Below, piece by piece: positions 13,156-33,760 of a stretch of DNA of 64,000 nucleotides. Under the pieces are notes generated by a model, which saw only the letters and a list, made by a program, of their open reading frames with translations, was not told where the DNA came from and did not search any database. Location of the stretch: contig CP062796.1 of the NCBI GenBank assembly GCA_018208355.1, positions 1 through 64,000 on the forward strand, given 5' to 3'. Made by a program: the position numbers and the translations under genes. Position 1 is the stretch's first letter, and each line of letters opens with the position of its first letter. This stretch comes from Candidatus Fermentithermobacillus carboniphilus. GTDB lineage: Bacteria; Bacillota; Sulfobacillia; Fermentithermobacillales; Fermentithermobacillaceae.

Positions 13156-13206
13156 AGTCAGGAAATAGCGTAAAGACGAGCCCGAAAAGCTGGGGGGAAG
13201 ACTGGC

Positions 13207-13659: not shown

Positions 13660-13689
13660 AAGAACCATAAGAACAAGGAGGAAATAAGT

Positions 13690-14604: not shown

Positions 14605-15350
14605 GACCTTTGGTCTTAGTATTTGACGTCTCATCAGACCTGGCTATGTTCCGCAAGTCTTATACGACTACATCGGCTGTATCGTTTCCATTTCCGCCGC
14701 CCACGGCACTGGCGGGGCTTATAGGTGCTATTTGCGGGCTGAAGCATGGTTCTAACTCCAGCGCATCGTCGGCGAGATTCTGGAAGGAAATGTCAGGAAT
14801 GAGGGTGGCAGTTGGGATTAAAAGGCCCATCCGATGGTTTACAACAGCTGTGAATCTCATGAAGTTTAAGACGCCCAATGCTTCCATGGGAGAACATATT
14901 CAGGTCAAGCACCAATTCGCTAAGATGCCCAAGTACAGAGTTTATGTGGAGGGCGATACAGAAGTATATCGCACGTTAAGAAAATGCCTGAAAGAAGGAC
15001 GATTCGTTTACACTCCATATCTAGGACTTGCGTTTTGCATAGCTGATGTTGAATTTTTAGGAGAATTTGAAACAGAGCCCGTCTTCTTCGAGGAAAACTC
15101 AAGGATAAACATAGACACCGTGTTACCTGACTACGGAGAAGTGGAAGTGGATGTCCTTGCTACGGGCGGCGTGCACCGGGAGGTAGTTCCCTTCCGGATG
15201 GATGAAAATAGGCGTTTAGAGGAAACAGTTACTGTCTTTTATCCGCATGTAAGCCAAGAATCATCATGTCACCTGGTGCTGTCGAAACAAGGCCAGGTGG
15301 ACATAACTGCCGTAGGAAGTGAAAAAGTTGCCTGGTTCAGACCCTGGTGA
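14601..15350 (+). CDS. cas5: Cas5b (Csh-type), crRNA 5'-handle-binding subunit
   Basis: 249 residues starting at GTG 14601 in a 4-bp overlap with cas7. The N-terminus (LVLVFDVSSDLAMFRKSYTT) and SFPFPPPTALAGLIGAICGL match the Cas5h family, whose RAMP fold caps the 5' handle of the crRNA. The C-terminus VAWFRPW is typical. No catalytic residues are expected, as Cas6 normally processes crRNA in I-B systems, and no cas6 is found in this window. Confidence 0.92.
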   Translation: MRPLVLVFDVSSDLAMFRKSYTTTSAVSFPFPPPTALAGLIGAICGLKHGSNSSASSARFWKEMSGMRVAVGIKRPIRWFTTAVNLMKFKTPNASMGEHIQVKHQFAKMPKYRVYVEGDTEVYRTLRKCLKEGRFVYTPYLGLAFCIADVEFLGEFETEPVFFEENSRINIDTVLPDYGEVEVDVLATGGVHREVVPFRMDENRRLEETVTVFYPHVSQESSCHLVLSKQGQVDITAVGSEKVAWFRPW

Positions 15351-15363
15351 GATAAATAATATC

Positions 15364-17873: not shown

Positions 17874-18296
17874 TCACTCATTCCCGCCTTTTTTCACGGC
17901 CAAGGATCTGCCAGACCCAACGAGACTTCGCCGTTCTTCTTCGGTATGTGGCCTGTGGGTCCCCAATCCAAAAATCACTTTTATCCTTTCGTCGGGAATC
18001 CCCGCTGAATTCAAAGCGCTTAATACTGGACGGAGCATTTTTTCTCTCGGAAGCGTTCGAGTTATATCGGGGACAACGATAGCGGCCGATCTTCTGCCAC
18101 GGGCAATCTCCGTCAATGGAGGTGTGCCAATTGGACAGGATAGAGCACGTAATATCTCTGCATCTTCATCCGGTGTTTTTTCCACGACACCGGCACTTAT
18201 GCACGCTATGATAGAGCTCCCACGAATCTGAGCCTTTACGCTACCTTCTCCGTACTTTAGATCTACACTACGGTACCCGCACCTTCTCCTGACCAT
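17874..18296 (-). pseudogene. N-terminal fragment of LarA-like (DUF2088) nickel-dependent racemase
   Basis: 140 codons with the LarA N-terminal pattern: KYGEGSVKAQI, CPIGTPPLTEIARG, SAAIVVPDITRTLP and FGLGTHRPHTEEE. LarA-family proteins are about 420 residues; the C-terminal domain and catalytic histidines are absent here, the frame ending in KKGGNE. It is a truncated host gene abutting the end of the I-B operon. The 300 bp upstream (18297-18600) show no gene apart from the repeat noted separately. Confidence 0.75.
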
Positions 18297-18538
18297 AATA
18301 CTATCTCACCTCTCACCTTTTATCGTTGCTACCCGATTCTCACTCTGACTACCGCCATACAACCGGCAGTAGCCCCTTCTGCATCCATCATGCCAACAGC
18401 AGAAAAAGGACTTGACCCCAGCTTCCTCCGACGCTGGTTGTAACGCCCTGCCTTATTAGGCACTCTGCCTCACGGTGCAAGAGAATCCCGCGTCTGAGTG
18501 GCTGTGGATATCCACAAAACCTGGTGAGGCCGCAAACT

Positions 18539-18592
18539 GAGCATGTCCCACGTTTCGTGGAATTTGATGGCGGCTCTCCAGCCTGTTGTGTT
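18539..18592. repeat. 54-bp dispersed inverted repeat, left copy
   Basis: Matches 33972-34025 in inverted orientation with three internal differences (for example CCCACGTTTCGTGG against CCCACATTTCATGG). Read on the minus strand, both copies give a peptide of the form GWRAAIKFHExWDML, so this may be a fragment of a duplicated coding sequence rather than an IS end. The two copies bracket the IS graveyard and the whole type III-B locus. Confidence 0.85.
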
Positions 18593-18603
18593 ACAACAGG
18601 AAA

Positions 18604-19240
18604 ATGGAAAATCAGAAACAGAAAGGAGAACTGCCAGTGTCAGAATATCACGATAAGCACCCAAAAAGAAACCAGAAAATTGAAGAATCGGAGAAACCGT
18701 TTTGGGAGAGAGTTCTCTCAAGATATTTTGATTTCCTTGGTGAGCCTAGCCAAAGCGGCAAAGGAAGGTCTATTGGCGCTTGCAGTTCAGGTCGAGCGGG
18801 AAATGTTCAGAAAATTGATGGAAATTGAGCTGACCATGAAGGTCGGAGAAGAAGGGAAGCACAATCCCAATAGACAGGCTTACCGGCACGGATACGAGAC
18901 AGGTGAAATCGTCCTGGGAGCTCGTAAGGTTAAAGTCCAGCGACCAAGGGCTCGGACCGTCGATAGGCGGAAAGTTGAACTTGAGGTGTATAAGGCATTT
19001 CAGGAAGAAGACATGCTGTCTCGAGCGATCTTGGAGCGAATGATACACGGTTTGTCGTGCCGGTGTTACCTCTCTGGTTTAGAGGATATTGGGTCTACTG
19101 TAGAAGCAGTTGGCATATCAAAGAGTACCCTGAGCCGACGGTTTGTTGAAATCACCAGAAGAGTGCTGGGAGTACTTCTGAGCTGGTCACTGAACGACCT
19201 GGATGGGGTGGACCCCATGTTGCCACCGTTGATCAGGTGA
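18604..19240 (+). pseudogene. IS256-family transposase N-terminal remnant, frameshifted
   Basis: Starting at ATG 18604, the first 40 codons are in one frame; near 18735 the reading continues in another (SLAKAAKEGLLALAVQVERE). Conserved IS256/Mutator landmarks follow: NPNRQAYRHGYETG, GARKVKVQRPRARTV and GISKSTLSRRFVEI. It stops at 19240, before the catalytic D-D-E core, so it is inactive. The next 200 bp (19241-19446) hold only degenerate sequence. Confidence 0.8.
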
Positions 19241-19446
19241 GCACGCGGGGGAAAGTCTCCGGGTAGGGAAGCGCCCCGCCGGCAATTCGGGGGTGCCTGG
19301 GTTGGAGGTAATCTATCAGCGGTGCGCAGGGATCGACAGTGCACAAAAAGAGTGTAACGGTGTGTCTTATCCTAACTTGACCGGTGGTTGGAAAAATCCC
19401 TGCCAGAGGTGGGTGGCATTACTGGCTTCGTAACTACGCTATCGAG

Positions 19447-19591
19447 GGCTCGCCTGGGCGGGTCCTAGGGCAACCAAACACCGGAACGGGTTCTGTGACC
19501 CAGCAGAATCAACGGCTGCCCTGCTGCATCCATTGGCTTTGTCTGCGCCCTGATGCCGATATTCGAGGCGCTTGCGCTTTTATCATGCCAA
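19447..19591 (-). ncRNA. Candidate IS110 bridge-RNA region, inverted remnant copy
   Basis: A 145-bp segment that is the reverse complement of 21411-21555 with only six differences. In the plus copy the segment lies just upstream of an IS110 transposase, where IS110 elements encode a bridge (seek) RNA. The 8-bp stem GGGCAGCC/GGCTGCCC of the other copy becomes GGGCAGCC/GGTTGCCC here, so it can still pair through a G-U wobble. No transposase follows this copy, so it is an orphan. Confidence 0.5.
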
Positions 19592-19843
19592 CAGGGAACC
19601 GTTCTTGCACGGCAGTACAAAACAGCACTAACTGAGTTCATTAACGCCGTTCCGGGATGGTACTGAAGAGATTCCAGCCTGTAACCATAAATCTTGACAA
19701 GGAGGTGTACGGGCAGGCCAGAGTGCCTGCCCTCAACACATGACATGACAAGCCCGAGAAGAATGTACTGGATCTTCTCAGAATCCTTAGCTTTGACCAA
19801 GGTGAGGTTCAGATAATTGCTGGATTCAACGCTCTTTTGTAAA

Positions 19844-20158
19844 ATGGAGGCGAACGAGGTGAGCACTGTGACCGGCAAAGTAGTTCCAGTGCCGGAAAAA
19901 CTCCAGGAAGCTATCGGGAAAGAGGCCACGGAAGAACTCGTAAACCTCATAAATGAAGTGGCGGCAACTGTAAGTTCCACCAAGGTCGATAAGACAGAAT
20001 ATGATGCTCACACGCTACTGGTCAGAGAGCAGTTTGAGCGTTTTAAAGTCGAAGTTAAGAACATGGTGAACTCAGCGCTTCTCAAGGGGCTTGCATGGGT
20101 AACAGTGCTGATTTTCGGTCTTTTCGGGGTGCTGTGTGTTTTGACAAGCACGCGCTGA
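19844..20158 (+). CDS. Small coiled-coil protein with one C-terminal membrane segment
   Basis: About 104 residues from ATG 19844 (a GTG at 19859 is also possible). A charged helical region (KLQEAIGKEATEELVNLI, then VDKTEYDAHTLLVREQFERF) suggests a coiled coil. It ends in a single hydrophobic helix (GLAWVTVLIFGLFGVLCVL), so it is probably a tail-anchored membrane protein. It resembles small DUF1640-like coiled-coil membrane proteins, but I cannot assign a function. It stands alone among mobile-element remnants. Confidence 0.6.
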   Translation: MEANEVSTVTGKVVPVPEKLQEAIGKEATEELVNLINEVAATVSSTKVDKTEYDAHTLLVREQFERFKVEVKNMVNSALLKGLAWVTVLIFGLFGVLCVLTSTR

Positions 20159-20206
20159 GGTAACGTAGTCGCGGTTTCAGGGCATGTTAATTGCGAGGGG
20201 ATAGAT

Positions 20207-20515
20207 ATGATTGCGAGGCACTTATCAAAGGAGACTGTGTTGAGACAACTGGAAGAGTCTGCTGGGATCATCAAAGAGTACGGAGTTCGCCGAATTGGGA
20301 TTTTTGGGTCGGTCCTCCGCGGTGAGGCACGGGAAGACAGCGACTTGGACGTGTTGGTAGAGTTCTCTGAAAAGACTTTTGATAAGTGCTTTGGACTCAA
20401 AGTGTTTCTCGAAGACCTTTTCGGGGCAAAGATAGATCTTGTCATTGCGGACAAGGTGAAGTCCCGGCTGAGGGGACAGATTTTCGGAGAAGTTGAGTAT
20501 GCAGCGGGATTTTAA
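20207..20515 (+). CDS. mntA: MntA-like minimal nucleotidyltransferase (antitoxin of HepT-MntA)
   Basis: 102 residues with the nucleotidyltransferase signature FGSVLRGEAREDSDLDVLVE (GSx10DxD type) and a third acidic residue in AKIDLVIAD. In HepT-MntA toxin-antitoxin modules this protein modifies and neutralises the HEPN toxin HepT. ATG 20207 follows GGGGATAG. It overlaps a hepT start at 20499, the normal antitoxin-then-toxin arrangement, but the toxin gene is cut. Confidence 0.88.
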   Translation: MIARHLSKETVLRQLEESAGIIKEYGVRRIGIFGSVLRGEAREDSDLDVLVEFSEKTFDKCFGLKVFLEDLFGAKIDLVIADKVKSRLRGQIFGEVEYAAGF

Positions 20516-20609
20516 AGTTTATCTAGAAGATGTACTGGAAGCGATTCACAGGATACGACTGTATACCAGGGATCTTTCGTATTTCAGGCGGCTCCTACCG
20601 GCTTTTTGA
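20499..20609 (+). pseudogene. hepT: HepT toxin, N-terminal 29 codons only
   Basis: The reading frame overlapping the end of mntA encodes MQRDFKVYLEDVLEAIHRIR followed by LYTRDLSYF, the standard HepT N-terminus. After about codon 29 (near 20586) the sequence changes to unrelated codons and stops at 20609. The HEPN motif (Rx4-6H) lies further on in HepT and is missing, so no active toxin can be made. The break coincides with the start of mobile remnant sequence containing the perfect palindrome CCGGCTTTTT-G-AAAAAGCCGG. Confidence 0.82.
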
Positions 20610-20611
20610 AA

Positions 20612-21120
20612 AAGCCGGGGTTAAGCTCTCTGGCCCTCTAGGCGACGGCCTGCCTGAAATTAACCTGAACATCGTAGCCTTTAACGGACCTGCTGACTGT
20701 GGACACCCGCATGGTTACGAACTGGGATTCCCTGGCCTGCTCCAGATGCAGGTGGCGTAATTTCGGGGGAACCTGTATCCGGCACGTGGGCAGGCGGCTC
20801 TGTGGCAGCGACGCGGTACTGCGACGGAGACTGCTCGTGCGAGAGACTTGTCTTCCAGCGCGTCTATACGCCGCCAGGCAGGACCAAACGAGGACGGTCT
20901 TTGGTTTGACTTTTGCAAAACCGCATTCAAGCCTTATGGTGTGACAGTTACTGCATTCTTGCTCATTGCAAAGCACCATCTTGGTAAGCAGATCGTCGTC
21001 CGTACGGACGGCGAAGACGCGCACTGGTTTGATGCCAAGGTGTTCTGCATGGCCGGACTTGGATACGGCCTTGAATACCGTATCCAAGACGGTGAACTTG
21101 AGGCCACCCGACTGGCCTAA
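20612..21120 (+). pseudogene. Degenerate conserved hypothetical gene on a remnant
   Basis: Two plus-strand blocks in different frames seem to belong together: LPEINLNIVAFNGPADC (ending at a stop at 20758-20760) and, in a second frame to 21120, DGLWFDFCKTAFKPYGVTVT with AFLLIAKHHLGKQIVVRTDG. The second block resembles a conserved phage- and plasmid-associated hypothetical family that I cannot name. A longer minus-strand frame over the same region looks low in protein character. The flanks to about 21400 hold no other gene. Confidence 0.45.
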
Positions 21121-21410
21121 TCCGGCACAAAAAGGAGGTGTCGGCACAGCAGGCCATCGGGGGCTTGCTGTACCAAAATACATGAGAATCTTGAAAATCT
21201 GGAGGGACGAGTGAGCAGATTCGCCCCGTTCCCGGGACAACCTGGGTACGATGGTGGGTCAAGTCTTTTTTTGCTGTTCTCCCGAAAATTGGCATGCGGG
21301 CTCGTGGCACCAAAGAAACCCCGGCTTTTTCCAACCGGCTGTTTGCCAGTACTCTACCGCATCAGCGCGAGATTTTCATTCCCGGTGGCGGCGCGAAGCG
21401 CCATGAACAA

Positions 21411-21621
21411 TTGGCATGATAAAAGCGCAAGCGCCTCGAATATCGGCATCAGGGTGCAGACAAAGCCAATGGGTGCGGCAGGGCAGCCGTTGATTCTGCT
21501 GGGTCACAGAACCCGTTCCGGTGTTTGGCTGCCCTACGACCCGCCCAGGTGAGCCGTGAGATCGGATAGGTGAGTGTTGCCCAGCCTTGGCTGCACCCAT
21601 GATCCCGAGGGAGGCATGCGT
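21411..21621 (+). ncRNA. Candidate IS110 left end and bridge-RNA region
   Basis: Non-coding stretch directly upstream of an IS110 transposase start. It begins with TTGGCATGAT, has a small hairpin GCGC-AA-GCGC at about 21425-21434, and a larger one closed by GGGCAGCC (21481-21488) with GGCTGCCC (21527-21534), inside which GGGT pairs with ACCC. Position and fold fit the bridge RNA of IS110 elements, which pairs with donor and target DNA. The first 145 bp recur inverted at 19447-19591. Confidence 0.55.
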
Positions 21622-22008
21622 ATGCGTTACATTGCTCTGGACGTGCACCAGCGTTATTGCGAAGGTGCCGAACTGCTAGCCAATGGTAAGATCAGGCGTT
21701 TTGGCATATCTACGACACGCGGATGCCTCGAGCAGTTTGCCAGCCAGCTCGGCCCTGATGGGAAACGCCCTATGGATTTACGACTTGATTTCGCCTCATG
21801 TAGAGAAAATCCTGCTGGCAAACACTTTACGCACAAGGGCGATTGCCGAGGCGCGAATTAAAACTGATAGGCTGGATGCTGAAATACTTGTCCGGCTGTT
21901 GGCTGCAGACTTCATTCCCGAGGTCTGGGTACCAAGTCCAGAACAGCGCCAAGTTCTGGCGCTGCTTGAATACCGCACGCGTTTAGTGCAGTTGAGGACT
22001 CGCCTGAA
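21622..22008 (+). pseudogene. IS110-family transposase (DEDD) N-terminal remnant, frameshifted
   Basis: ATG 21622 lies 7 bp after GGGAGG. The first frame gives MRYIALDVHQRYCEGAEL with the first D of the RuvC-like DEDD site. Near 21760 reading shifts by one frame to WIYDLISPHVEKILLANTLR and then ARIKTDRLDAEILVRLL with the later acidic residues. Homology ends at LRTRLKN (22008), where a CRISPR-repeat-like sequence and a purC fragment follow. The serine-containing Tnp20 domain is missing. A C-terminal IS110 piece exists at 46962-47206. Confidence 0.85.
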
Positions 22009-22033
22009 GAACCTACCTATGAGGGATGAAAAC
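22009..22033 (+). repeat. Solitary CRISPR-repeat-like sequence at an IS110/purC junction
   Basis: Matches positions 6-30 of the array repeat at 23 of 25 bases (CCTACCTATGAGGGATGAAA with flanking GAA and AC). It is flanked by CTGAAGAACC and CTCAAGAACC, a 10-bp direct repeat with one mismatch. It is 14 kb from the array, with no spacer or second repeat nearby. Confidence 0.85.
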
Positions 22034-22160
22034 TCAAGAACCACCTTGCGGAAAAGGGCCTTGAACTGATAGACATAAAGTACGAGTTCGGCGAAGTTGG
22101 CGGGCAGCCCGTGATCATCGACGAGATCTCGGGCGACTGCATGAGAGTGGCAAAAAAACG
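22030..22160 (+). pseudogene. C-terminal fragment of PurC (SAICAR synthetase)
   Basis: In the frame of 22111 the translation reads LKNHLAEKGLELIDIKYEFG, then QPVIIDEISGDCMRV, the conserved IDxKxEFG and DEISGD segment near the C-terminus of SAICAR synthetase, an enzyme of purine synthesis. No start or ATP-binding N-terminus is present. After about 22160 the codons cease to look like PurC. The following 330 bp (to 22490) hold short imperfect repeats of the type AAGGARCACAAGGG (22395-22440) and no gene. Confidence 0.65.
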
Positions 22161-22491
22161 GACAAGTTCTTTTGCAGAAAGAGCTGTGTCCTGCGATCCT
22201 CGGGGAATAGCCTGGGTCTTGGCGAATAGCAAGAAACCGTCGAAGATTGAAGATCCGGCAAACGCCAGTAAAGAGGCGAATGGCGGAAAACCGATGAAAG
22301 GCAGGAAGGCCGCGGTTGTTTCTCGCGCGGGATGGTCGTCCAGACTGGTACCGAGCATTACAATTTCCTCACGTGCTCGCGTTCGAGGAGCACAAGGGTA
22401 GAGGCCAAGGAACACAAGGGTTGAGATCAAGGAGCACAAATGTCGGGCAGGTGTCTACTCATAGGACGATGGCATTGACTCTAAGTCTATC

Positions 22492-23412
22492 GTGCTGGCT
22501 GCGAAGAACATCGCTGATCACGTCGGCTTGCCACCATCCCGGGCCGCATTCGTTATTTACTCGCCGCCTAAAGAGGTGCTAGCGAGCGCAATCGCCGCGG
22601 AACTTGAGAACCGGGGAATTGCCTGTTCGATGCTGCGATTGGGGAGTTTCTCGGGCCCGGGGCCTGCTCCGTTGCGGGATATGGTGAGGAGTCTGGCTGG
22701 TGATACGGGACTCGTCTTTCTCACCACTTGGGCGCACTCGGAGTTGCTTTTTGAGACAATTGGCAGGCCAGACAGAGGGATCAAGGTTCCATCCGATCAT
22801 CTCTACGCGGATTTCTGTGTTGGAATGGCTGCGTTCGTGCGCACCCATGCGGTCGACGCTTCCGAACTCAAGACTTTCCGCGAGAACCTATTGGCACTTC
22901 TAAGCAGTGCCCGGAGGATTCGCGTAACCGCGCCTGGCGGAACAGACATCACGTTGGTGCCCAGAGCCTGGAACTGGACTAACGGTGAGGTGTTTACCGC
23001 ACCGCTGGAAGGTACCGCACGGGGGACCATCGTTGTGGACGGGTGCGCTTATTCTGGCCCGCCTAAGAAGCCGTTCAGGTTGGTGGTTGAGGATGGCCGC
23101 GTGGTCAATCTGGCTGAACTGGACAAGGATGACGACCAGCAGGCGATGGTTCTGACCGACCTTACACGGGATGACAACGCAGCCGTACTCGCCGAGTTTG
23201 GGATCGGTATCAATCCCGGTGCGCTCCCCAATGCGGATCTGATGGAAGCTGAACAGGCTCGGGGTACCTGCCACTTTGGATTTGGCCACAACCTTGAGTA
23301 CGGAGGCAACAATTCGAGTGTGTATCACTTTGACCTGGTCGTCCGCAATCCCATCATTCAGGTTGAAAGGCAAGACGGCCAATCTCTCCGAGTTGATCTA
23401 TCTGACGGATGA
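22492..23412 (+). CDS. M29/NicX-like metal-dependent hydrolase (aminopeptidase-like)
   Basis: 306 residues resembling the leucyl aminopeptidase T (M29) and 2,5-dihydroxypyridine dioxygenase-like superfamily. Conserved features are GGTDITLVPRAWNW, the acidic GTIVVDGCAYSGPP, AEFGIGINPGA with an aligned glutamate, and GTCHFGFGHNLEYGG plus HFDLVV with metal-binding histidines, glutamate and aspartate. Such proteins bind a divalent metal and hydrolyse small peptides or related substrates. GTG 22492 is the first usable codon, but the N-terminus may have been lost to the upstream rearrangement. Confidence 0.6.
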   Translation: MLAAKNIADHVGLPPSRAAFVIYSPPKEVLASAIAAELENRGIACSMLRLGSFSGPGPAPLRDMVRSLAGDTGLVFLTTWAHSELLFETIGRPDRGIKVPSDHLYADFCVGMAAFVRTHAVDASELKTFRENLLALLSSARRIRVTAPGGTDITLVPRAWNWTNGEVFTAPLEGTARGTIVVDGCAYSGPPKKPFRLVVEDGRVVNLAELDKDDDQQAMVLTDLTRDDNAAVLAEFGIGINPGALPNADLMEAEQARGTCHFGFGHNLEYGGNNSSVYHFDLVVRNPIIQVERQDGQSLRVDLSDG

Positions 23413-23538
23413 CGGACACATGATCGTCTGCTGAGGGTTTAGCACTCGGAACAGTACTCCTGTTGACGTCTCTAGAAGAGTACTAATGTGCTCTTGCCGC
23501 TATTGTGTCACAAGTCTCGAACGGGAGGGATGCTCACC

Positions 23539-24120
23539 ATGACTGCTGCCGAGGTCTCGTGGTACGCCTCGCACACAAAGGTCACCGACCCAGGCTCCAT
23601 GACGGAGATCCTTAAGTTCCTGTCAAAAGGAATCGGGGCCATTCCTGAGCTTATGGAATTAATCCAGGGTCTTTTTGTTCACATCTTCTGAGCGGAACGT
23701 TACAGGATGTCACTCTCGGAAGAGAAGCGAACCCATGTGCAGTACCGTCTGGTTTCGAGGACCCTGGAAATCATAACGAAAATGGATTCTTCCCCTCTCA
23801 CGGTCAAGCGGTCTCTCGATAGGCGTTTTTTGGGAAATTGCAGGGACTTTTCTGTGTTTCTCTGCTCTGTTCTCCGCGAACAGGGAATCCCCGCACGCGC
23901 CCGTTGCGGGTTTGGAACGTACTTTCGTCCAGGTGGTTTCGAAGACCACTGGGTTTGCGAGTACTGGAACGGCGAGAGATGGGTGATAGTCGATGCCCAG
24001 ATTCACGGGTTCCAGCGGAAAACCCTGCGGATCCATTTTGACTTTCTGGACATGCCTCGCGGTCTCTACGAGCAGGAGCCGAGACTCAGGGTCCCTCCGG
24101 AGATGATTGTCTCTGGGTAG
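23539..24120 (+). pseudogene. Transglutaminase-like protein interrupted by one in-frame TGA
   Basis: From ATG 23539 (after GGGAGGG) the frame reads TAAEVSWYASHTKVTDPG and continues to VHIF, then TGA at 23689-23691, then AERYRMSLSEEKR in the same frame to 24120. The second part has the triad of transglutaminase-like domains: Cys in LGNCRDFSVFL, His in FEDHWVCEYW and Asp in VIVDAQIHG. Relatives would be expected to carry Trp at the stop (TGG to TGA). Translation could restart at ATG 23707, leaving the catalytic domain without its N-terminus. Confidence 0.75.
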
Positions 24121-24445: not shown

Positions 24446-24589
24446 ACGTTTCTGTCGACTCATTCTCCTGCAAGTCGATTCTTGTGATCTTCTGGAGGAA
24501 CCTGTCCCACTCGCGTAGAATCCAGAATAGGTAATTATTAGGGGCTTTCGACTTTCCTTTACTCGAACCTAGCGGAGGTGGAGGGTTTT

Positions 24590-27376
24590 GTGACAGATGG
24601 GTTTTGGCAATTGAAAACTGTGGCGTACCTGCATGATCCGCCCCACAAGTCGCTTCTTCTCGGGCGAGGAATAGGTCACGAGGCGGTCGCCCTAAGTTTG
24701 ATCTCTGCGGCGACCGGCACAACGCCTTCGGCTCAGGAGTGGGGTACTGTTAAGGTTGCAGACCGTATCGCATCAGCGGCGGATCGCGTCGATTTCCCGA
24801 AGGATGCCGAAGTGTATTGGTCAAAGAGGCCTGTCCTCTGTCATCCATTGTCTGGGGAACGTTACGATTTGGGTCATTTGGTCGATGTTGACCCTCAAAC
24901 CTTGGGGAAATTGGTGGAACAAGTTGTAACAGGCGTACGTTCCAAGTACGGAGGTAACGAACAGAAGACGTTCTTGCACCTTTGGAGATACCTGGCCGAT
25001 GACCTAAAGAATCAAGAAACATCCAACAAACTCGGCTGCCTGTGGGATCTGCTTCCTGCTGATACGCGCATTCCTGACCACACGATTTGGCATCATAACC
25101 GTATAGTTTCGGCTATCGCTGGAGCGCTCCCGAATCCTGCCTTGGTGGTAATGTCCATTGGACCTGTCCAAGATTTCATCGCTTGCGCGCGAACGACACG
25201 CGACCTTTGGACTGGCAGCTGGCTCTTATCCTTCCTTGCCTGGCAAGGTATGAAAGCCATATCGGAAGAATGGGGACCAGACGCCATACTGTTCCCGGAC
25301 CTCCGCGGACAACCCCTTGTAGACAAGTGGCTCCAGGAACTGGGGATACAGGGTCCATCCGCAGAAACTGAAGACTACCTTGCTACCCCTTCTCTTCCCA
25401 ACCGTTGGGTAGCTATTCTGCCTGCGGACGCTGTTCGCAGGGTTGCAGATGGCGCGGAAGAGGTCATAAAAGCTGCCTGGCGAGATCTCGCTCGACAGGT
25501 CAAAGACTTACTTGGGGACCGCGCGAAGGGTTACGACTTAGACTTGTCCCAATGGCAAAGGCAGGGAGACTGGGTGGAAGTCTATTGGTCTTCCCACGCC
25601 TGGCCCGATGTCACCGCAGGTGTGACGCCGCAAGTCGAAGCTTCCCTTGACGCGCTCCTTGGACCGGATCAGGATTACGGGAGGCTATTGCATTCGTTTC
25701 GTAAGTCCGGGAAGTGGGAACCTAACCTGGGCACCATATATGGGCGACTGCATTCGTTGGTCGATCGCGTTCACGGGAGCAGGAAGGCTCTCAGGGATTT
25801 CGGTGGTTCAGAATCGGGTGAACCCGGATACAAATGTACGCTGTGTGGCGTCCGGGAACCCGTCAGAGATCTAAATACCGATTCGTCTTACTATAGGGAA
25901 CTAATCTCTTTCTGGGCGAAGATAGGCGACGACTTGGGCGCCGGTACCGTTGAGGAGAACGGGAAAGAGCGTCTTTGCACAGTTTGCCTAACCAAACGTC
26001 TCGCGCCGAAAGTTCTACAGGAGAGTCTAGGCCTCAGAAGCGCTTTCCCGTCTACGAGCGAGATCTCGGCCACCAAGTACAAAATCGCTGTTCTCCAAGA
26101 ATGTATCAAGAACGAGGAACTACAATGCGCTGTTAGCGAGTTTGTCGCTGCCTTCCCCAAGGACCTGGCTGTGGCTTCGTACGTTCCTGCGGTTGGTTTG
26201 GAGCTCAAGAAAGTAAGGTCTTTGGCCTCGGTGGATTCATCCGTTTTGGAACGATTTGCGAAGATAGATGGGGAATGGCTCTTTCCGGAGACTTACGAAT
26301 CTGAGGAGAGCGATCATCTACTGGGAGAAAACAAGGCGACCATGGCCCGCCTTGCGGCCAATCTGCGGGAAAAGGCTAAGAAAGCCGGAATAACACATCT
26401 TTCTCCTTATTATGCCGTCTTGGCCATAGACGGCGACCAAATGGGGAAGTGGGTTTCCGGCACCCATAGCGACCTTCCCAAGATAAGAGAAGTCCTGCAT
26501 CCTGACATCGTGAACATTTGTTCCAACATGTTCGGCTCGGACGTGTTGGAGCAGAAGAGACCTCAATCGCCGTCCCTGCAAGGAACCCTGAGTTCCACGC
26601 TCCTCGGTTTCAGCTTGTACGTGGCCCGATATGCCGTAGAGGTGCAAAACGCCGGTAAAATCGTATATTCGGGTGGGGATGACGTACTTGCGTTCTTGCC
26701 TCTCGAAGATGCCCTTACCGCCGCCGATGATGTTCGAAGAATGTTCCAGAAGTTTGCCGTGGTTTCAGGAGACACGGTTCGAGTGGGCCAAGACCTCTTG
26801 CGTGGTGATATTGGACGCTCATTCAGAAACGCACACCTTGGCCTGGGAAATCGTATTACAGCGAGCGCCGGAATCGCGGTTGCCCATTACCGCCAGCCCC
26901 TGCGACAGGTGTTGGACGCAGCCAGACATATGGAGGAAGCGGCGAAGGAAAGCATGGGGAGGTCAGCATTTGCAGTGGCTACCCTCAAGCATTCTGGTGA
27001 ACGGACTGAGGCAGGTGCGCCGTGGAGGGTGGACGACCGTCTTGAAACAATACCATTCCTGATGAACTTGGTTGCCCTATTTGGCGACGAGGAAGGACTA
27101 TCTGCTCGTCTCTTACCCCAGCTGGCGTACGAAATCACCGCCTATCCCGGACTACCCAGCGAGGCAACCAGCCAGCGCGTTGAGTATCTGGTAAAGAGGC
27201 ACCTTGGCCAGGGGAGAGAGGAGCTGGCTCGCGCTATCGCTCGTGACGTTTGCTCACTGCAGGAGTGGTTTGCGGGGAAAGGACGCGGTCAGCTTTGGGC
27301 CTGGGAGAAGGCATTAGACCTCATTAGTCTCGCATCTTTCATGGCTAGATACTGCAAAAAGGTGGTGAGAAATTGA
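24590..27376 (+). CDS. cmr2: Cas10/Cmr2, large subunit of type III-B complex
   Basis: About 928 residues. An N-terminal HD-like motif HDPPHK (H15-D16), a D4 region FIACARTTRDLWTGSWLL, zinc cysteines CTLCGVREP and CTVCL (about residues 410-465), the palm-1 motif AIDGDQMGKW (near 614) and an intact GGDD (YSGGDDVLAFLP, about 694-697). An intact GGDD means it should make cyclic oligoadenylates on target binding, while HD permits single-strand DNA cleavage. GTG 24590 is chosen because CGGAGGTGGAGG lies just before it. First gene of the cmr operon; it overlaps cmr3 by 4 bp. Confidence 0.94.
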   Translation: MTDGFWQLKTVAYLHDPPHKSLLLGRGIGHEAVALSLISAATGTTPSAQEWGTVKVADRIASAADRVDFPKDAEVYWSKRPVLCHPLSGERYDLGHLVDVDPQTLGKLVEQVVTGVRSKYGGNEQKTFLHLWRYLADDLKNQETSNKLGCLWDLLPADTRIPDHTIWHHNRIVSAIAGALPNPALVVMSIGPVQDFIACARTTRDLWTGSWLLSFLAWQGMKAISEEWGPDAILFPDLRGQPLVDKWLQELGIQGPSAETEDYLATPSLPNRWVAILPADAVRRVADGAEEVIKAAWRDLARQVKDLLGDRAKGYDLDLSQWQRQGDWVEVYWSSHAWPDVTAGVTPQVEASLDALLGPDQDYGRLLHSFRKSGKWEPNLGTIYGRLHSLVDRVHGSRKALRDFGGSESGEPGYKCTLCGVREPVRDLNTDSSYYRELISFWAKIGDDLGAGTVEENGKERLCTVCLTKRLAPKVLQESLGLRSAFPSTSEISATKYKIAVLQECIKNEELQCAVSEFVAAFPKDLAVASYVPAVGLELKKVRSLASVDSSVLERFAKIDGEWLFPETYESEESDHLLGENKATMARLAANLREKAKKAGITHLSPYYAVLAIDGDQMGKWVSGTHSDLPKIREVLHPDIVNICSNMFGSDVLEQKRPQSPSLQGTLSSTLLGFSLYVARYAVEVQNAGKIVYSGGDDVLAFLPLEDALTAADDVRRMFQKFAVVSGDTVRVGQDLLRGDIGRSFRNAHLGLGNRITASAGIAVAHYRQPLRQVLDAARHMEEAAKESMGRSAFAVATLKHSGERTEAGAPWRVDDRLETIPFLMNLVALFGDEEGLSARLLPQLAYEITAYPGLPSEATSQRVEYLVKRHLGQGREELARAIARDVCSLQEWFAGKGRGQLWAWEKALDLISLASFMARYCKKVVRN

Positions 27377-28482
27377 CCTCCATAGTTGTCGAACCTGTTG
27401 ACGTCCTGTTGTTCCGGGACGGCAAACCTTTTTCTGCGGGATCGGACCATTTGGCCAGGAGCGTATTTCCTCCACATCCAGGGACTTTGGCAGGATTCGT
27501 TCGTTCCAGGCTTCTACGGGATGCTGACCTTGATTGGGCGAAGGCCAGAGAGAAGTTCGGCAATCTGGGTGGGCCCAGCGATTACGGGGACTTCCGTATA
27601 ACCGGCTTCTTCTTAAGAAAAGGGGAAGAAGACTATGTGCCAGTCCCCACGGACTTGGTTTGCGGGAAGACTTCGGGGAACTATTTCCTCGTTCGCCCGC
27701 TTAGGGCTGAGGATGCTTCTGGTCTAGCCAGCAATTTTCCACAAGAGCAGAAAGACCTACTCCATCCCTGGGTCCGAACCGGGGAACCGATTGAGTCAGC
27801 CCATGGTTTCATCTCCCTCAGAAACCTTTTCGAATACATTCTGGCTGGACAAGCTCCTCCCCGGAACGCGCTACTCCAGGAATCGGACTTTGCGCTCAGA
27901 GAAGCCAGGACGATAGTAGGTTTGGCCAAGACCAGTCTCACATCTGATCCGGGGCGTCTTGCAACCATTGAGTTTGTCAGAATGCTCGATGGAGCCAGCT
28001 TCCACTTGCGGTTCGAAGGCGTTCGCTGGCCGGGTAATGTAGGACTAGGTACTTTGGGTGGGGAGGGTAGAACCGTCCGCTGGAAGGTTCTCGAGAACTG
28101 GGTTCCTCCTGATGCCAAGAAGGTTATGGAATCGATCAAGTCAACCGGGCGATTTAAGGTTGTCCTTCTTACTCCCGCCATCTTCGAGGGCGGTTGGGTG
28201 CCCAAGAGGCGCCTGCAAGAGCTTCTCAAGCAGAAAGGCGTAGAGGCGCGTTTGGTCGCAGCGATAGTAAACCGTCCTGCTCATGTTGGCGGTTTTGACC
28301 TTCATAGGCGGGCTCCAAAGCCCATGTTCCCGGCGGCGCCGGCTGGAAGCGTGTATTACTACGAGGTTGTTAAGGGTGACGTTGCCGGGTTAGTTAACAG
28401 CCTGGAGATGAGCTGCATATCGGACAGGGATTGGGAAGTAGGTATGGGATTATCCGTTGTGGGAGGTTGGGAATATGCCTGA
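27373..28482 (+). CDS. cmr3: Cmr3, crRNA 5'-tag-binding subunit of type III-B
   Basis: 369 residues from TTG 27373 (TTGA overlap with cmr2). The N-terminus (VEPVDVLLFRDGKPFSAGSD) and FPPHPGTLAGFVRSRLL are the Cmr3 signature; GLGTLGGEGRTVRW is the conserved glycine-rich loop. Cmr3 pairs with Cmr2 at the base of the complex and holds the crRNA 5' tag. The C-terminus overlaps the start of cmr4. Confidence 0.93.
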   Translation: MTSIVVEPVDVLLFRDGKPFSAGSDHLARSVFPPHPGTLAGFVRSRLLRDADLDWAKAREKFGNLGGPSDYGDFRITGFFLRKGEEDYVPVPTDLVCGKTSGNYFLVRPLRAEDASGLASNFPQEQKDLLHPWVRTGEPIESAHGFISLRNLFEYILAGQAPPRNALLQESDFALREARTIVGLAKTSLTSDPGRLATIEFVRMLDGASFHLRFEGVRWPGNVGLGTLGGEGRTVRWKVLENWVPPDAKKVMESIKSTGRFKVVLLTPAIFEGGWVPKRRLQELLKQKGVEARLVAAIVNRPAHVGGFDLHRRAPKPMFPAAPAGSVYYYEVVKGDVAGLVNSLEMSCISDRDWEVGMGLSVVGGWEYA

Positions 28483-29437
28483 AAACGTCAAATCCTCTGG
28501 TGCGAAATTTGGTGAGAAAATAGCCACGGAGATATTGTTCATTCATGCGCTAACATCGCTCCATCCCGGTTCGGGAACTGCCCTGGGAGTGGTAGATCTA
28601 CCGGTTCAGAGGGAGCGTCACACACAGTGGCCCGTGATTCCCGGATCTAGCCTAAAAGGAGTACTCAGGGATGTCTCACGTCGGCAAGTCTTATCCTCAG
28701 ATGCAGGGAACCCTGACGAGGACGTGTGGATAGAGACGGTTTTCGGACCTTCTGTAGGCGGGGCCGAGAAACACGCGGGCGCTGTGAGCATTTCGGACGC
28801 AAAAATTCTCGCTTTCCCCGTTAGATCTTTGCGGGGAGTCTTTGCATGGGTGACGTGCCCGGCAGTTTTGGAACGTTTCAATCGTGATCTGGCGCTTATA
28901 GATTCCAATCTCTTGACCGACATCCCTCATCCCGACAAAGACACTGCAGTATGTGCAGACGAAAACCTTCTCTTGGCGGACAGAAACAGAATAATGCTGG
29001 AGGAATTCGAGTTTGCCGTCAGCACTACTCAGAGGTCTAACAACGTTGCAGCATGGATCGCTGATCACGGGATTCCGGAAATGGACGAGGCCACGCGGCA
29101 ACGGTTCAAGAGGAACCTTGTTGTGCTCCACGACGATGACTTCACATATTTCGTCCGTCACGCCACAGAAGTGGTTGCCAGGATCGGTCTCGATTATCAA
29201 CGGAAAACCGTCAAAGAGGGAGCTCTATTCTATCAAGAGTTCATTCCTCCCGAGACCGTTTTTTATTCTGTCATAATGGCTAACTCAAGCAGGAGAGAGG
29301 GGCATCCCCAGGCTGCAGCTGAGGTGCTTGACCGCTTGAACCAGTGGTTACCAAAGGTGGTCCAGGTCGGAGGAGATGAAACCATCGGAAAAGGGCTTTG
29401 CGCCTTGCGCGTCTGCAAACAGGGGGTAGGAGCATGA
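28475..29437 (+). CDS. cmr4: Cmr4, backbone and target-RNA-cleaving subunit
   Basis: About 320 residues. ATG 28475 is preferred over the upstream in-frame codon at 28457 because GGGAGGTTGG precedes it. The catalytic loop is visible as GTALGVVDLPVQRE, with D41 the likely residue that cuts target RNA at 6-nt intervals, and PVIPGSSLKGVLRD is the RAMP glycine-rich motif. Multiple copies form the helical backbone on the crRNA. Overlaps cmr5 by ATGA. Confidence 0.94.
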   Translation: MPENVKSSGAKFGEKIATEILFIHALTSLHPGSGTALGVVDLPVQRERHTQWPVIPGSSLKGVLRDVSRRQVLSSDAGNPDEDVWIETVFGPSVGGAEKHAGAVSISDAKILAFPVRSLRGVFAWVTCPAVLERFNRDLALIDSNLLTDIPHPDKDTAVCADENLLLADRNRIMLEEFEFAVSTTQRSNNVAAWIADHGIPEMDEATRQRFKRNLVVLHDDDFTYFVRHATEVVARIGLDYQRKTVKEGALFYQEFIPPETVFYSVIMANSSRREGHPQAAAEVLDRLNQWLPKVVQVGGDETIGKGLCALRVCKQGVGA

Positions 29438-29862
29438 CGGCAAAGAATCTGGCAGATGGGATTGCCCCAGGAGCAAGAACCACTCTCGCTCAGAGACGTG
29501 CCCAACATGCTTGGAATGCTGTACAGCGAGCGAGAAAAAAGAGTGGACCTCATCGTGAGCAAGACCTGGATAAATTCGCAGCTGAAGTAAAGAAACTTCC
29601 GATTAGAATCTTGACCTCTGGTCTAGGAAAGACCCTCGCTTATCTGGAAGATGTGCCTGGACTTCTGGCGGAGATCTCAGATTGGGTGCTTAACCATAGA
29701 TATCCATCCAGCAACGACGGAGGAAACGACCTGCTTGACCGCATCCTCAGGGGGGATTCCGACTTCTTGCGGCGGGTAACGGAAGAGGTACTAGAATACA
29801 GTGAGTGGCTTACCCGCTTCTGTGAGGCCGCTCTAGAGGGGGGCAGCGACGGTGAGTCCTGA
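29434..29862 (+). CDS. cmr5: Cmr5, small helical subunit of type III-B
   Basis: 142 residues, start ATG 29434 in the 4-bp overlap with cmr4. The N-terminus LAQRRAQHAWNAVQRARKK and LPIRILTSGLGKTLAYL are the Cmr5 pattern; small subunits line the target strand opposite Cmr4. It overlaps the next gene by 11 bp (29852-29862), so all five genes are translationally coupled. Confidence 0.92.
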   Translation: MTAKNLADGIAPGARTTLAQRRAQHAWNAVQRARKKSGPHREQDLDKFAAEVKKLPIRILTSGLGKTLAYLEDVPGLLAEISDWVLNHRYPSSNDGGNDLLDRILRGDSDFLRRVTEEVLEYSEWLTRFCEAALEGGSDGES

Positions 29863-32281
29863 TAATCCTGTCCCAGCTAGTACCAAGTCGTTGCTCAATG
29901 CGGTGCCTATAGAAAGTCGCCACCCTGGGCTGCAATTGGACAAGATATCCTTTGCTCGGGGTCAGGAAGGACAAAAGGTTTGCCTCGAAGAGGTATGTCA
30001 TACAGCCGGGGACGAGCGCTTGCTTGCGGAGCTGCTCGACAGGCGCGCGCGGTGGTTGGATGCCCTGTCCGCAAGGGTAATCAGGCTGAAGACCTCAAGC
30101 CCCCTCACGTTGCACTTGAGTAGAGCATCCGCCTTAGAAAACGCTGGTATATGCTTGCATCCCATATACGGGTTTACGTATCTGCCTGGTAGCGGTTTGA
30201 AGGGAATGGCCAGGGCGTACGCGGAGACGGTTTGGCTCCCCGCGCAGAAAGACTACGTGGCTGCCTCCCGCAAAGTAGCGGAGGTGTTCGGCTGGGCCAA
30301 AGAACGCACGGGGAAGGAAGAGCCTGCTCTCGCTTGTGGCACGCTCGGTCCAGGTGAGGGCGTCGTTGCCGAGAAGGAGCCGGGAGAAGCAGGTTCGGTC
30401 GTTTTTCACGATGCGTGGCCCGAAAAATGGCCGAAACTCGTGTTAGATATAGTCAATAATCACCATGGCGACTACTACAAGGGTTTGGAAGCTCCCGGGG
30501 ACTGGCAGGAGCCAAACATGGTCTATTTTCTTTCGGTTGGACCGGGAGAAACCTTTTCATTTGCTTTGTCAAAGAGAAACCCGAGCGTCTCTGATGAGTG
30601 CTTGGAGCTCGCCGAAACCTGGCTCAAAGGGGCGCTTACCTACCTTGGCGCTGGCGCCAAAACTAATGCCGGATATGGATGTTTCTCTGTTTCTGAGGAA
30701 GTTCACACAGATCCCAGTCCGTCCCTCGAGGTCTACGAGACACGGCTTAAACTTGTCTCTCCTGCTTTCCTGGCTGGGGCGACACAGGGGGAGAGCGATT
30801 GTGATCTTCGCGGTGCTACCTTGCGAGGTCAGCTCCGCTGGTGGTGGCGTACTTTACATGCGGGCTTTGTGGATTGGCAGACCCTCAGGAGGCTCGAGAC
30901 AGCGATTTGGGGAAGCGACGAATCGGGCGGGGCCGTTAGGATCACGGTTGAGCCCGTGCAGGACACCATCGTCAAGGAGCAGTACGATCCCCGGTCGATA
31001 GCAAGTGGGCATCGCCTCCCTGCCCCATCCCGCGGGCTTATTCAAGGGCTCAAGTACCACTCGTACGGGATGGAGGCTAGTAGAGGACGTGCCAGCCGGT
31101 GGTACATTGCTCCTGGAGCACAGTGGGTGGTCAGGCTCATCGCCCGCCCGGGATACTACTCTCCTGACTCAGTTAAAGATGAGTCTGAGAATGGGAAATC
31201 CAGGAAGAGGGCCAAGAGAGCGGCCAATGGTACAGCCAGCGGTTCTGGCGGCTGCAAGATCTTGATTTTGAGTCCTTCAACGGTACTCGAGCAAGCCAAG
31301 GCAGCGTTATGGCTACTTTGCAGGTACGGAGGAGTCGGCGCGAAAGCCCGGAAAGGCTTTGGCTCGTTTGAGGATGTCCCTGACATGAACCTGGAGAAAT
31401 GCAAACAAGCGGCCATGAATCTCCGAAGAGAGTGCGGGCTGAACGATGCTTTCTCAAGTGAAAGGGCCGAGACGCCTTCCCTGGAGGAGATGATGGGTTT
31501 CGAACTTCCCACTGCATGGGATGACCCATGGTTTGCTCTGGACCAGGTAGGATACGCGGTCCAGGGCTTTGCCCGGAACCATGCCCGTGATCTCGCCAAG
31601 AAAGCCCTGGGATTGCCTCGCCGCATCGGTTCTCCGGCGCATGGCGAATTCAAACCGGTCAAGCGCATAGGAGATCGTCACGCTTCACCGGTGCTGTATC
31701 ATCTATCGAAAGACTCCAACGGTAAGATCATGGTGAGGGTGACGGCTTTCGTCGCTAAGCGTCTGCCGAGCCCCGAGAAAAGCAAGAGCTTCTTGAGGGA
31801 GTTCCTTGATTACCTGAAGCCCGAGCTCGAGGCGCGCGCTGCCGGGGGAATTGTACCCCCGGGATCTACCTCGATGTCGTCGCTGAATCAAACTAAGCGC
31901 GCTGGCGCAAAGGGTCCGAGGGCGGCCGCTCCAGCACTTTCTCCTGCCCGTCCAGCTCCGCGGTCGCCGACTGGCGTGACCCCAACGCCAGATGAGAGGC
32001 TAGTTCCAGGAGATCGCGTCGAAGTAGAACTTCTCGAAGAGAAAACTAAGAAGGGCGGTTGGAAAGCGAAGGCTGTAGTTTCCGGCAAGATTGGTCCCAT
32101 ACAGAACACAAAGGACGTGCCCGGCGATAAGAAGCCCGGCGAACGCGCCATTGTGTACGTCCATTCTGCAAGCAACGAGGCCGTTCAGTTCCTATGGCCC
32201 ACACCTGAGGTCGAAGCTCGTTTCAGGAGGAGAGACGGCGGAAATAGGCCGAACAACCCTCCGGGAAATCGCAATCGTTGA
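29852..32281 (+). CDS. cmr6-cmr1: Fused Cmr6-Cmr1 protein with C-terminal beta-barrel-like domain
   Basis: 809 residues in one uninterrupted frame. Residues about 1-290 read as Cmr6: IYGFTYLPGSGLKGMARAYA, VVFHDAWPEK, DIVNNHHGDYY and LTYLGAGAKTNAGYG. From about 295 to 685 they read as Cmr1: RLKLVSPAFLAGA, DLRGATLRGQLRWWWRTL, AIWGSDESGGAVRI and a late RHASPVLYHL. A proline-, alanine- and lysine-rich linker (about 690-715) leads to a small domain (GDRVEVELLEEKTKKGGWKA, then KKPGERAIVYVHSA) resembling an OB/TRAM-type RNA-binding fold. Cmr6 and Cmr1 cap the 3' end of the crRNA filament; here they are covalently joined. No separate cmr1 or cmr6 exists in the window. Confidence 0.88.
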   Translation: MSPDNPVPASTKSLLNAVPIESRHPGLQLDKISFARGQEGQKVCLEEVCHTAGDERLLAELLDRRARWLDALSARVIRLKTSSPLTLHLSRASALENAGICLHPIYGFTYLPGSGLKGMARAYAETVWLPAQKDYVAASRKVAEVFGWAKERTGKEEPALACGTLGPGEGVVAEKEPGEAGSVVFHDAWPEKWPKLVLDIVNNHHGDYYKGLEAPGDWQEPNMVYFLSVGPGETFSFALSKRNPSVSDECLELAETWLKGALTYLGAGAKTNAGYGCFSVSEEVHTDPSPSLEVYETRLKLVSPAFLAGATQGESDCDLRGATLRGQLRWWWRTLHAGFVDWQTLRRLETAIWGSDESGGAVRITVEPVQDTIVKEQYDPRSIASGHRLPAPSRGLIQGLKYHSYGMEASRGRASRWYIAPGAQWVVRLIARPGYYSPDSVKDESENGKSRKRAKRAANGTASGSGGCKILILSPSTVLEQAKAALWLLCRYGGVGAKARKGFGSFEDVPDMNLEKCKQAAMNLRRECGLNDAFSSERAETPSLEEMMGFELPTAWDDPWFALDQVGYAVQGFARNHARDLAKKALGLPRRIGSPAHGEFKPVKRIGDRHASPVLYHLSKDSNGKIMVRVTAFVAKRLPSPEKSKSFLREFLDYLKPELEARAAGGIVPPGSTSMSSLNQTKRAGAKGPRAAAPALSPARPAPRSPTGVTPTPDERLVPGDRVEVELLEEKTKKGGWKAKAVVSGKIGPIQNTKDVPGDKKPGERAIVYVHSASNEAVQFLWPTPEVEARFRRRDGGNRPNNPPGNRNR

Positions 32282-32452
32282 TCGGTGTGGGTGTTTACTT
32301 TCGCCTGCTTATGCATGGGTAGTAGCTGTTGTTGAGGCCACCATGGATCGGGGGACCGTTATCGAGCCTCCGAGCTGTGGTGGCCAACCCGAGTTAATCT
32401 TTTGCGAGACTCTTCTTTAGCCTTACAATCCCGACCGGTAGGTGACTTTGAG

Positions 32453-32911
32453 ATGAGAGTATTGGTAGTAACCGTTGGTGGCTCTCCAGCGCCTATTATT
32501 AGTGCTTACAAAGAGTTTGAGCCAGATTTCACGTACTTCGTCTGTTCAAAGGGGAACCCACCCTCGGGAACTGAGGGCATGGTAGACGGCGAAGGCGATC
32601 CCTGCGGAGACAGGCGCACAAAGGTTTGTCCCCATTGCGGGGGGATTGTACCTCTCGGGGATCCTAAGGGTAAGTGCCTGGTGGAGCAACTTCAAATCCC
32701 AAAGGATGCTTATAAGAAAGTGATATTGAACGACCCTGACGATCTCCAAGAAGTGTATGACGCGATGCTGGGAATTCACAAGGAAGTCAGCGAGCGGTTC
32801 CGCCCGGACCGGAAGGCGATTTGCTATACGGGTGGTACAAAGACCATGACAGCAGGAGCTGTTCTCTTGGGGATCCGGTATCCCGATTGGGAGCTAGCGA
32901 TCGAGAGGTGA
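32453..32911 (+). CDS. CARF half of a Cas02710-type (TIGR02710) ancillary effector
   Basis: 152 residues beginning VLVVTVGGSPAPIISAYKEF, the N-terminal signature of the TIGR02710 CARF family, and including the ligand-pocket motif CYTGGTKTMTAGAVLLG. It carries a cysteine cluster, CPHC with an upstream GDPC. CARF domains bind the cyclic oligoadenylates made by Cas10. The frame ends at TGA 32909-32911, but the same frame continues downstream with PREDLDVVRRGNSWW, so in relatives this is one protein. ATG 32453 follows GGTGACTTTGAG. It lies 170 bp after the cmr operon. Confidence 0.8.
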   Translation: MRVLVVTVGGSPAPIISAYKEFEPDFTYFVCSKGNPPSGTEGMVDGEGDPCGDRRTKVCPHCGGIVPLGDPKGKCLVEQLQIPKDAYKKVILNDPDDLQEVYDAMLGIHKEVSERFRPDRKAICYTGGTKTMTAGAVLLGIRYPDWELAIER

Positions 32912-32929
32912 CCCAGGGAGGACCTTGAC

Positions 32930-33760
32930 GTGGTACGAAGGGGCAATAGTTGGTGGCCTCAAGACGCCACAACAGTGTACGCGGACATCCAGGTGGAAGT
33001 GTGCAAGTCACTCTTGAGCAAGTACGAGTACGATACAGTTGGACAGCTGTTGATCCCGCTACAGATGAGTCCAACGCTCTCGCGAGAGAAACGCTTCCGA
33101 ATCCAACGTCTCCGACAGCTGTGTCAAGCTTTCAGCCTGTGGGATCGGTTCGAGCATGAAGCTGCCTTGGGCCTCCTTGAAGCGCTAGGGAGCCCGGGAA
33201 TTGCTCCATGGATCCGCCGTTCGAAGGTACTTGCCGGAAAGGTTAGGAAAACGAATCGGTTCCAGATAGTTGCGGACCTCGTTCTCAACGCTGAGCGACG
33301 CGTAGTGCAGAAGAAGTATGTTGATGCAGTGGCTCGTCTATATCGCGCGGTTGAGATGTTGGCTCAGACGAGGCTCGTGGACAAGTACCAAATAGATACG
33401 AGCAAAGTCTCCCTCGAAAAACTGCCGGATGTACTCAGAGCCAAGTACAGCGAGATGGCAGATGAAAGCGGAAATGTGGTGCTATCGTTGCAACAGGCAT
33501 ATGAGCTCTTGATGGACTTCAACGATGAACTGGGCCTGTATTTTCAGGGACAGCGGAAGAAGATTGGCAACGCTTTGCACGTGCGAAACCAGTCCATATC
33601 TGGACACGGTGTTGCGCCGGTGACTGAGGAAAGGTACGCGGAGTGTGGGCGAGTCTTTGAAGACTTCATCCGGAGCGGATTGAGCGTTTGCCGGGCAGAT
33701 GTGGAGTGGACCCAGCTTCCAGGGGAGGAGCTTGTCGAATTGTCGGAAGAGACCCGCTAG
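32930..33760 (+). CDS. HEPN half of the Cas02710-type effector, with its own ribosome site
   Basis: 276 residues in the same frame as the CARF part, after an in-frame TGA. GGGAGG stands 8 bp before GTG 32930, so it could be translated by reinitiation. The middle (RRVVQKKYVDAVARLYRAVE, MLAQTRL) and RNQSISGHGVAPV near residues 218-230 match the C-terminal half of TIGR02710; RNQSISGH fits the Rx4-6H site of HEPN ribonucleases. In intact relatives cyclic oligoadenylate binding to CARF switches on this RNase. Alone, the domain would be either inactive or unregulated. Confidence 0.75.
   Translation: MVRRGNSWWPQDATTVYADIQVEVCKSLLSKYEYDTVGQLLIPLQMSPTLSREKRFRIQRLRQLCQAFSLWDRFEHEAALGLLEALGSPGIAPWIRRSKVLAGKVRKTNRFQIVADLVLNAERRVVQKKYVDAVARLYRAVEMLAQTRLVDKYQIDTSKVSLEKLPDVLRAKYSEMADESGNVVLSLQQAYELLMDFNDELGLYFQGQRKKIGNALHVRNQSISGHGVAPVTEERYAECGRVFEDFIRSGLSVCRADVEWTQLPGEELVELSEETR

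Follow-up and report, generated by a model that had tools for sequence, protein, structure and literature searches.

Does a type III-B CRISPR-Cas operon really encode Cmr6 and Cmr1 as a single protein with an additional C-terminal domain, and what could such a domain be doing there? This is the question raised by the window (the whole stretch of DNA analysed here, 64,000 nucleotides of Candidatus Fermentithermobacillus carboniphilus). Four effector genes, whose ends overlap or touch, lie in the same direction upstream of the fusion gene, and a ribonuclease gene follows it:

24578..27376, + strand, cas10/cmr2 (TIGR02577, E 3.4e-68), with an HD motif at residue 19 and GGDD at residue 699
27373..28482, + strand, cmr3 (PF09700, E 5e-65)
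28457..29437, + strand, cmr4, the backbone Cas7 (TIGR02580, E 6.8e-77)
29398..29862, + strand, cmr5, the small subunit (PF09701, E 5.6e-20)
29852..32281, + strand, the cmr6-cmr1-CTD fusion gene, an uninterrupted frame of 809 aa with a GTG start at 29852
32402..33760, + strand, a TIGR02710-like CARF-HEPN ribonuclease gene, directly downstream of the fusion, with an in-frame TGA at 32909-32911

The fusion gene shares its first 11 nt with the end of cmr5. With a Cas10 that has the palm GGDD, with cmr3, cmr4 and cmr5, and with both Cmr6 and Cmr1, the locus is, judged by its gene content, a complete type III-B effector operon, with cmr6 and cmr1 merged into a single gene. The TGA splits the CARF-HEPN gene into a CARF part of 169 aa and a HEPN part of 276 aa, and the HEPN-matching frames of related fusion operons are in one piece, of about 440-595 aa. 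The gene of the window is either a decayed effector or the product of a sequencing error.

The surroundings hold further CRISPR-Cas material. The window opens with several kilobases of CRISPR array (more than 100 repeats). A type I-B locus (11665-17820) adjoins it, between the array and the type III-B operon. The cas8b/Csh1 of this I-B locus is divided between ORFs of 496 and 150 aa, with a stop and 51 nt between them and an IS3 transposase alongside; it could be a pseudogene, or its C-terminal part could be a separately encoded small-subunit-like protein. The space between the I-B and III-B loci (17874-24120) is taken up by fragments of genes (LarA-like racemase, Mutator transposase, M29 peptidase, transglutaminase-like).

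The fusion protein is divided as follows:

30074..30694, + strand, Cmr6 RAMP domain (residues ~75-281), with the motifs LPGSGLKGMARAY and GAGAKTNAGYG
30728..31843, + strand, Cmr1 part (residues ~293-664), two RAMP-type lobes, with the motif DLRGATLRGQLRWWWRTL
31844..31996, + strand, basic Pro/Ala/Arg-rich linker (residues ~665-715), predicted to be disordered (AlphaFold2, pLDDT ~30)
31997..32206, + strand, predicted C-terminal S1/TRAM-like OB domain (residues ~716-785; AlphaFold2 and Foldseek)
32039..32062, + strand, EKTKKGGW motif (residues 730-737) in the beta1-beta2 loop, conserved in the alignments and in unseeded homologues
32207..32278, + strand, basic RG/N-rich C-terminal tail (residues 786-809), net charge +4

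Both RAMP assignments are supported by several comparisons. The NCBIfam profile TIGR01898 (Cmr6) matches residues 78-278 (E 2.1e-34, 119 bits, cut-off 51) and TIGR01894 (Cmr1) matches residues 299-507 (E 5.3e-10, 39.8 bits, cut-off 28.65), and PADLOC agrees with NCBIfam on both. In a phmmer search of the PDB the first part of the chain finds Cmr6 (3x1l_H and 9l7c_I, E 1e-27) and the second part Cmr1 chains (4l6u_A, E 3.4e-8). We also modelled the full chain with AlphaFold2 (14-member alignment, pLDDT 74) and compared the model by Foldseek with solved structures, among which Cmr1 (4w8x, 4l6u, 9l7c_A) and Cmr6 (9l7c_I, 3x1l_H, 4w8v) came out on top; for the Cmr1 part TMt was 0.60-0.66 against 4w8x/4l6u. 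The possibility that the second half is another Cmr6 is ruled out by the NCBIfam Cmr1 match and by Foldseek. No second Cmr1 was found in the single-contig genome of 2.32 Mb, in which the fusion carries the sole copy. Cmr6 and Cmr1 thus stand in one chain, joined by a short linker (about residues 282-292), and are followed by the longer linker (net charge +5 over residues 668-714) and a compact beta domain. The sequence-only reading had proposed these three parts in this order within one 809-codon frame, with a flexible linker before the last; profiles and predicted structure agree with it on each point, including the disorder of that linker.

What is the beta domain? It matches no family in Pfam, NCBIfam or PADLOC, and its sequence finds only chance matches in the PDB. 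In the full-chain model, residues 722-795 form a confident five-strand-plus-helix domain. A separate AlphaFold2 model of the domain, built on 25 homologues (pLDDT 82.5), gave Foldseek matches to S1/OB proteins (eIF2alpha, eIF1A, IF-1, MJ1198) and to TRAM domains (MiaB, RlmCD), the best E-value being 7e-4 (eIF2alpha S1) and TMt reaching 0.67 for MJ1198. The predicted fold is an S1/TRAM-like five-stranded OB barrel, in line with the OB/TRAM fold guessed from the letters, with the conserved E-[KR]-T-[KN]-K-G-G-W placed in the loop that joins the first two strands. The Pfam S1 profile (PF00575) does not recognise the window domain, and of the 25 homologues it touches only one (E 0.07); the RNP1-type K-G-F-G-F-I motif of cold-shock domains is absent from the window protein.

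A scan of 84,980 genomes, with the peptide EKTKKGGW among the seeds, returned 13 intact full-length relatives and one frameshifted contig. The full-length relatives are 33-48% identical to the window protein from end to end and belong, by the titles of their records, to Deltaproteobacteria, Binatia, Blastopirellula, Planctomycetaceae, Acidobacteria, Thermoanaerobaculia, Sericytochromatia, Rhodothermales, Hyphomonadaceae, Hydrogenedentes and Lentisphaera. The loci with sufficient flanking sequence show the order cas10-cmr3-cmr4-cmr5-fusion, and the fusion is the only Cmr1 match in 9 of the 13 other fusion-bearing genomes. Could the fusion still be an artefact of assembly or frame, made from two adjacent genes? 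Some neighbours in the window are indeed broken (the CARF-HEPN gene, the LarA fragment). However, the same continuous frame occurs in at least 13 independent genomes and in further ones found by unseeded searches, and with so many unrelated genomes sharing it no stop or frameshift has been missed; an artefact is thereby ruled out, and its chances are, in our estimate, negligible. The three-part protein is a genuine and widespread variant across several bacterial phyla, and the fusion that the sequence-only reading suggested looking for in relatives does exist there.

A scan with EKTKKGGW among its seeds is no measure of the constancy of the C-terminal domain. We therefore discounted the invariance of this peptide in alignments A1 and A2 and relied on unseeded searches, in which the whole protein was compared with sampled genomes of the window's phylum and of the phyla of L046, L048 and L051. 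Of the nine full-length window-type fusions found without the motif as a seed, eight keep the domain (L071, L073, L091, L092, L112, L113, L114, L123); a further one, L115, is cut by the contig end. In the ninth (L072) the unseeded search detected no copy of the domain, and its N-terminus is cold-shock-like by profile. The pattern E-[KR]-T-[KN]-K-[GED]-G-W is present in 11 of 13 further loci from these searches (the window not counted), and in L071 and L083 the domain is present with a degraded motif. Basic C-terminal tails are found in many homologues as well. In the phylum of L051, four fusions (L112, L113, L114, L123) begin with long low-complexity extensions, and the linkers ahead of their OB domain are longer and rich in Arg and Pro, and one Sericytochromatia genome (G418) has two different three-part fusion genes, L051/L111 and L123 (frames of 774 and 928 aa). 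Searches among viruses and plasmids found neither the domain nor the full chain; with the whole protein, plasmids yielded only separate Cmr6 genes and short RAMP fusions of the cyanobacterial type.

How far the fusion is new depends on the part considered. That Cmr1 and Cmr6 are normally separate holds for Thermus, Pyrococcus and Archaeoglobus (3x1l, 4w8v, 4w8x, 4l6u, 9l7c), whose proteins resemble the window chain in fold and motifs and share its expected position at the crRNA 3' end, but are encoded by two genes and lack the C-terminal OB domain. A Cmr6-Cmr1 fusion has nevertheless been published already: the type III-B Cmr1-6 of Microcystis aeruginosa was purified with Cas10, Cmr3, Cmr4 and Cmr5 as an active complex, and it was also assayed in E. 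coli against phage T4 (PMC11855584). This protein and its cyanobacterial relatives (such as WP_103672748.1, L007) likewise have Cmr6 and then Cmr1 in one chain, and in L007 the fusion is the last gene, after cmr5, as in the window, with no separate cmr1 predicted in the cluster. Unlike the window protein, the cyanobacterial fusions measure about 570-630 aa, have a very divergent Cmr1 half and are without the C-terminal OB domain. The fusion as such is thus already known, and the C-terminal domain is the less expected part; in the papers that we searched, from the open-licence part of PubMed Central, we found neither the three-part chain nor this domain on III-B subunits, which is weak evidence of absence. 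As to the idea that fusion fixes a Cmr1:Cmr6 ratio of 1:1, the covalent link is real, but it leaves the ratio unchanged, since native Thermus Cmr, in which the two subunits cap the complex, already contains each of them once (PMC8376896).

The window-type and cyanobacterial fusions fall into separate groups on both of our trees. On the Cmr1 tree, 24 fusions form one group (SH-aLRT 99), apart from unfused Cmr1 proteins and also from the short fusions of cyanobacteria. The Cmr6 tree places 21 of the 23 fusion+CTD rows in one set (support 97), with two Lentisphaera fusions outside, and is compatible with a single clade for these rows (AU p 0.29). A single fusion origin shared with the cyanobacterial type is not rejected (AU p 0.279 for Cmr6, 0.146 for Cmr1). 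The two Lentisphaera proteins (L057, L058) have a Cmr1 half that groups with the other fusions and a Cmr6 half that does not; a domain swap or fast evolution of the latter is possible. Insertion of Cmr1 between Cmr6 and a pre-existing C-terminal domain would fit the domain orders, but we do not claim it, as the Cmr6 tree does not put the fusions beside the Cmr6+CTD proteins.

The KTKKGGW domain is by no means confined to the fusions. It stands at the C-terminal end of unfused Cmr6 proteins (L039, L059, L061, L062, L063, L079, L083, L099), some of which belong to systems with a clear separate cmr1; L063, for instance, has the order cmr1-cas10-cmr3-cmr4-cmr6+domain, and a short ORF takes the place of cmr5. 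The same domain ends RAMPs of a different kind and subtype, the type III-D TIGR03986 proteins L064-L069 (Treponema, Desulfobacteraceae, Planctomycetota), and the two loci that we checked (L064, with Csx19, and L067) are III-D loci with Csx10. S1-domain fusions in Csx10 systems were reported in 2011 (Makarova et al., PMC3150331), possibly with this same domain. To explain where the domain is present and where absent, the Cmr6 tree needs no fewer than 9 changes; gain or loss has thus occurred more than once. An N-terminal cold-shock domain, with the K-G-F-G-F-I motif, is found on other Cmr6 proteins (L034, L036, L074, L084); counted together with the cold-shock-like N-terminus of fusion L072, such domains account for at least five changes on the same tree. 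In the solved III-B complex 9arw (also 9z7q) such a Cmr6 occurs: as in the window, an OB-fold domain is fused to Cmr6, but here it is a classical cold-shock domain, it is N-terminal and Cmr6 is not fused to Cmr1. Fusion L072 combines a cold-shock-like N-terminus with the Cmr6-Cmr1 fusion and has no recognisable KTKKGGW domain.

The subunits that carry the domain have a position in common. In Thermus Cmr, the crRNA 3' end lies exposed in a cradle of Cmr1 and Cmr6, and it is there that pairing with the target begins (PMC8376896). In type III-Dv it is the Cas7-insertion subunit that keeps hold of this end and of a 6-nt seed (PMC11026444), and the TIGR03986 chain 8s9t_E (795 aa) is, by its length and residue numbers, most probably that subunit. 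On these placements, the KTKKGGW domain is found in two subtypes on subunits that are, or are thought to be, at the seed end, and the simplest reading of this recurrence is a tethered OB arm that contacts the target RNA or the crRNA 3' end. We consider it likely that the window protein is the whole distal III-B head in one polypeptide, with the OB domain as its tethered RNA arm. By analogy with the established structures, its Cmr6 and Cmr1 parts would cap the crRNA 3' (seed) end beside the last Cmr4 of the backbone, and the flexible basic linker would carry the small OB domain. This domain, we infer, would bind RNA through the KTKKGGW loop and the basic flanks; it may capture the target close to the 3' seed, which lies exposed, or keep the 3' end of the crRNA in place. 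In either case it would speed up or stabilise seed pairing ahead of Cas10 activation.

The core of the domain is only weakly basic (net +2 in the window protein, mean +1.7 over 38 copies), so that any RNA contact would fall to the motif, the linker and the tail, and this makes protein docking a serious rival. The degraded motif of L071 and L083, the lack of a detectable copy in L072 and the modest best Foldseek E-value (7e-4) also count against the RNA arm. The domain might then be a docking module for Cas6, for the CARF-HEPN ribonuclease or for a host RNase active in crRNA 3' trimming, with no RNA arm at all. OB folds often serve for protein docking, and a CARF-HEPN gene lies directly downstream in several fusion operons. 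Yet the domain is equally present in loci where we found no HEPN gene (L046, L049, L051, L055, L056), it also occurs in other III-B systems, on Cmr6, and in III-D, on subunits whose partners are different, and its conserved element is a Lys/Gly/Trp loop suited to nucleic-acid contacts. The unrelated cold-shock domain at a comparable place in other Cmr6 proteins likewise speaks against docking, which we regard as rather unlikely. One might also argue that the tether between Cmr6 and Cmr1 alone matters, as in Microcystis Cmr1-6, the C-terminal domain being a relic or no more than an aid to assembly or solubility; the short fusions of cyanobacteria (570-630 aa) do without it, and the Microcystis one is active (PMC11855584). 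Its retention in eight of nine unseeded full-length window-type fusions and the conservation of its motif across phyla and protein contexts make this improbable.

Besides the tethered RNA arm of the window protein, a broader proposal can be put forward, tentatively and at somewhat less than even chances: the KTKKGGW OB domain may serve type III effectors in general as a mobile module of the seed end, attached independently to Cmr6, to the fusions and to the III-D 3'-end RAMP, with cold-shock domains as functional stand-ins. It would catch target RNA and set the on-rate of guide-target pairing, and in the fusion clade the whole III-B 3' cap and the arm would have become a single exchangeable protein. 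According to published work, target recognition by type III complexes starts at the crRNA 3' end (PMC8376896, PMC11026444). A small uncatalogued domain that occurs on the III-B and III-D subunits placed, or presumed, at that end, and for which cold-shock domains seem to stand in, makes a seed-end arm for the first capture of RNA directly testable by deletion. The C-terminal domain is the part of the finding worth following. The fusion itself is a further step in the series of Cas7-Cas7 fusions that includes the III-D and III-E effectors, and would offer a ready-made single-chain 3' cap with which to build or simplify Cmr tools.
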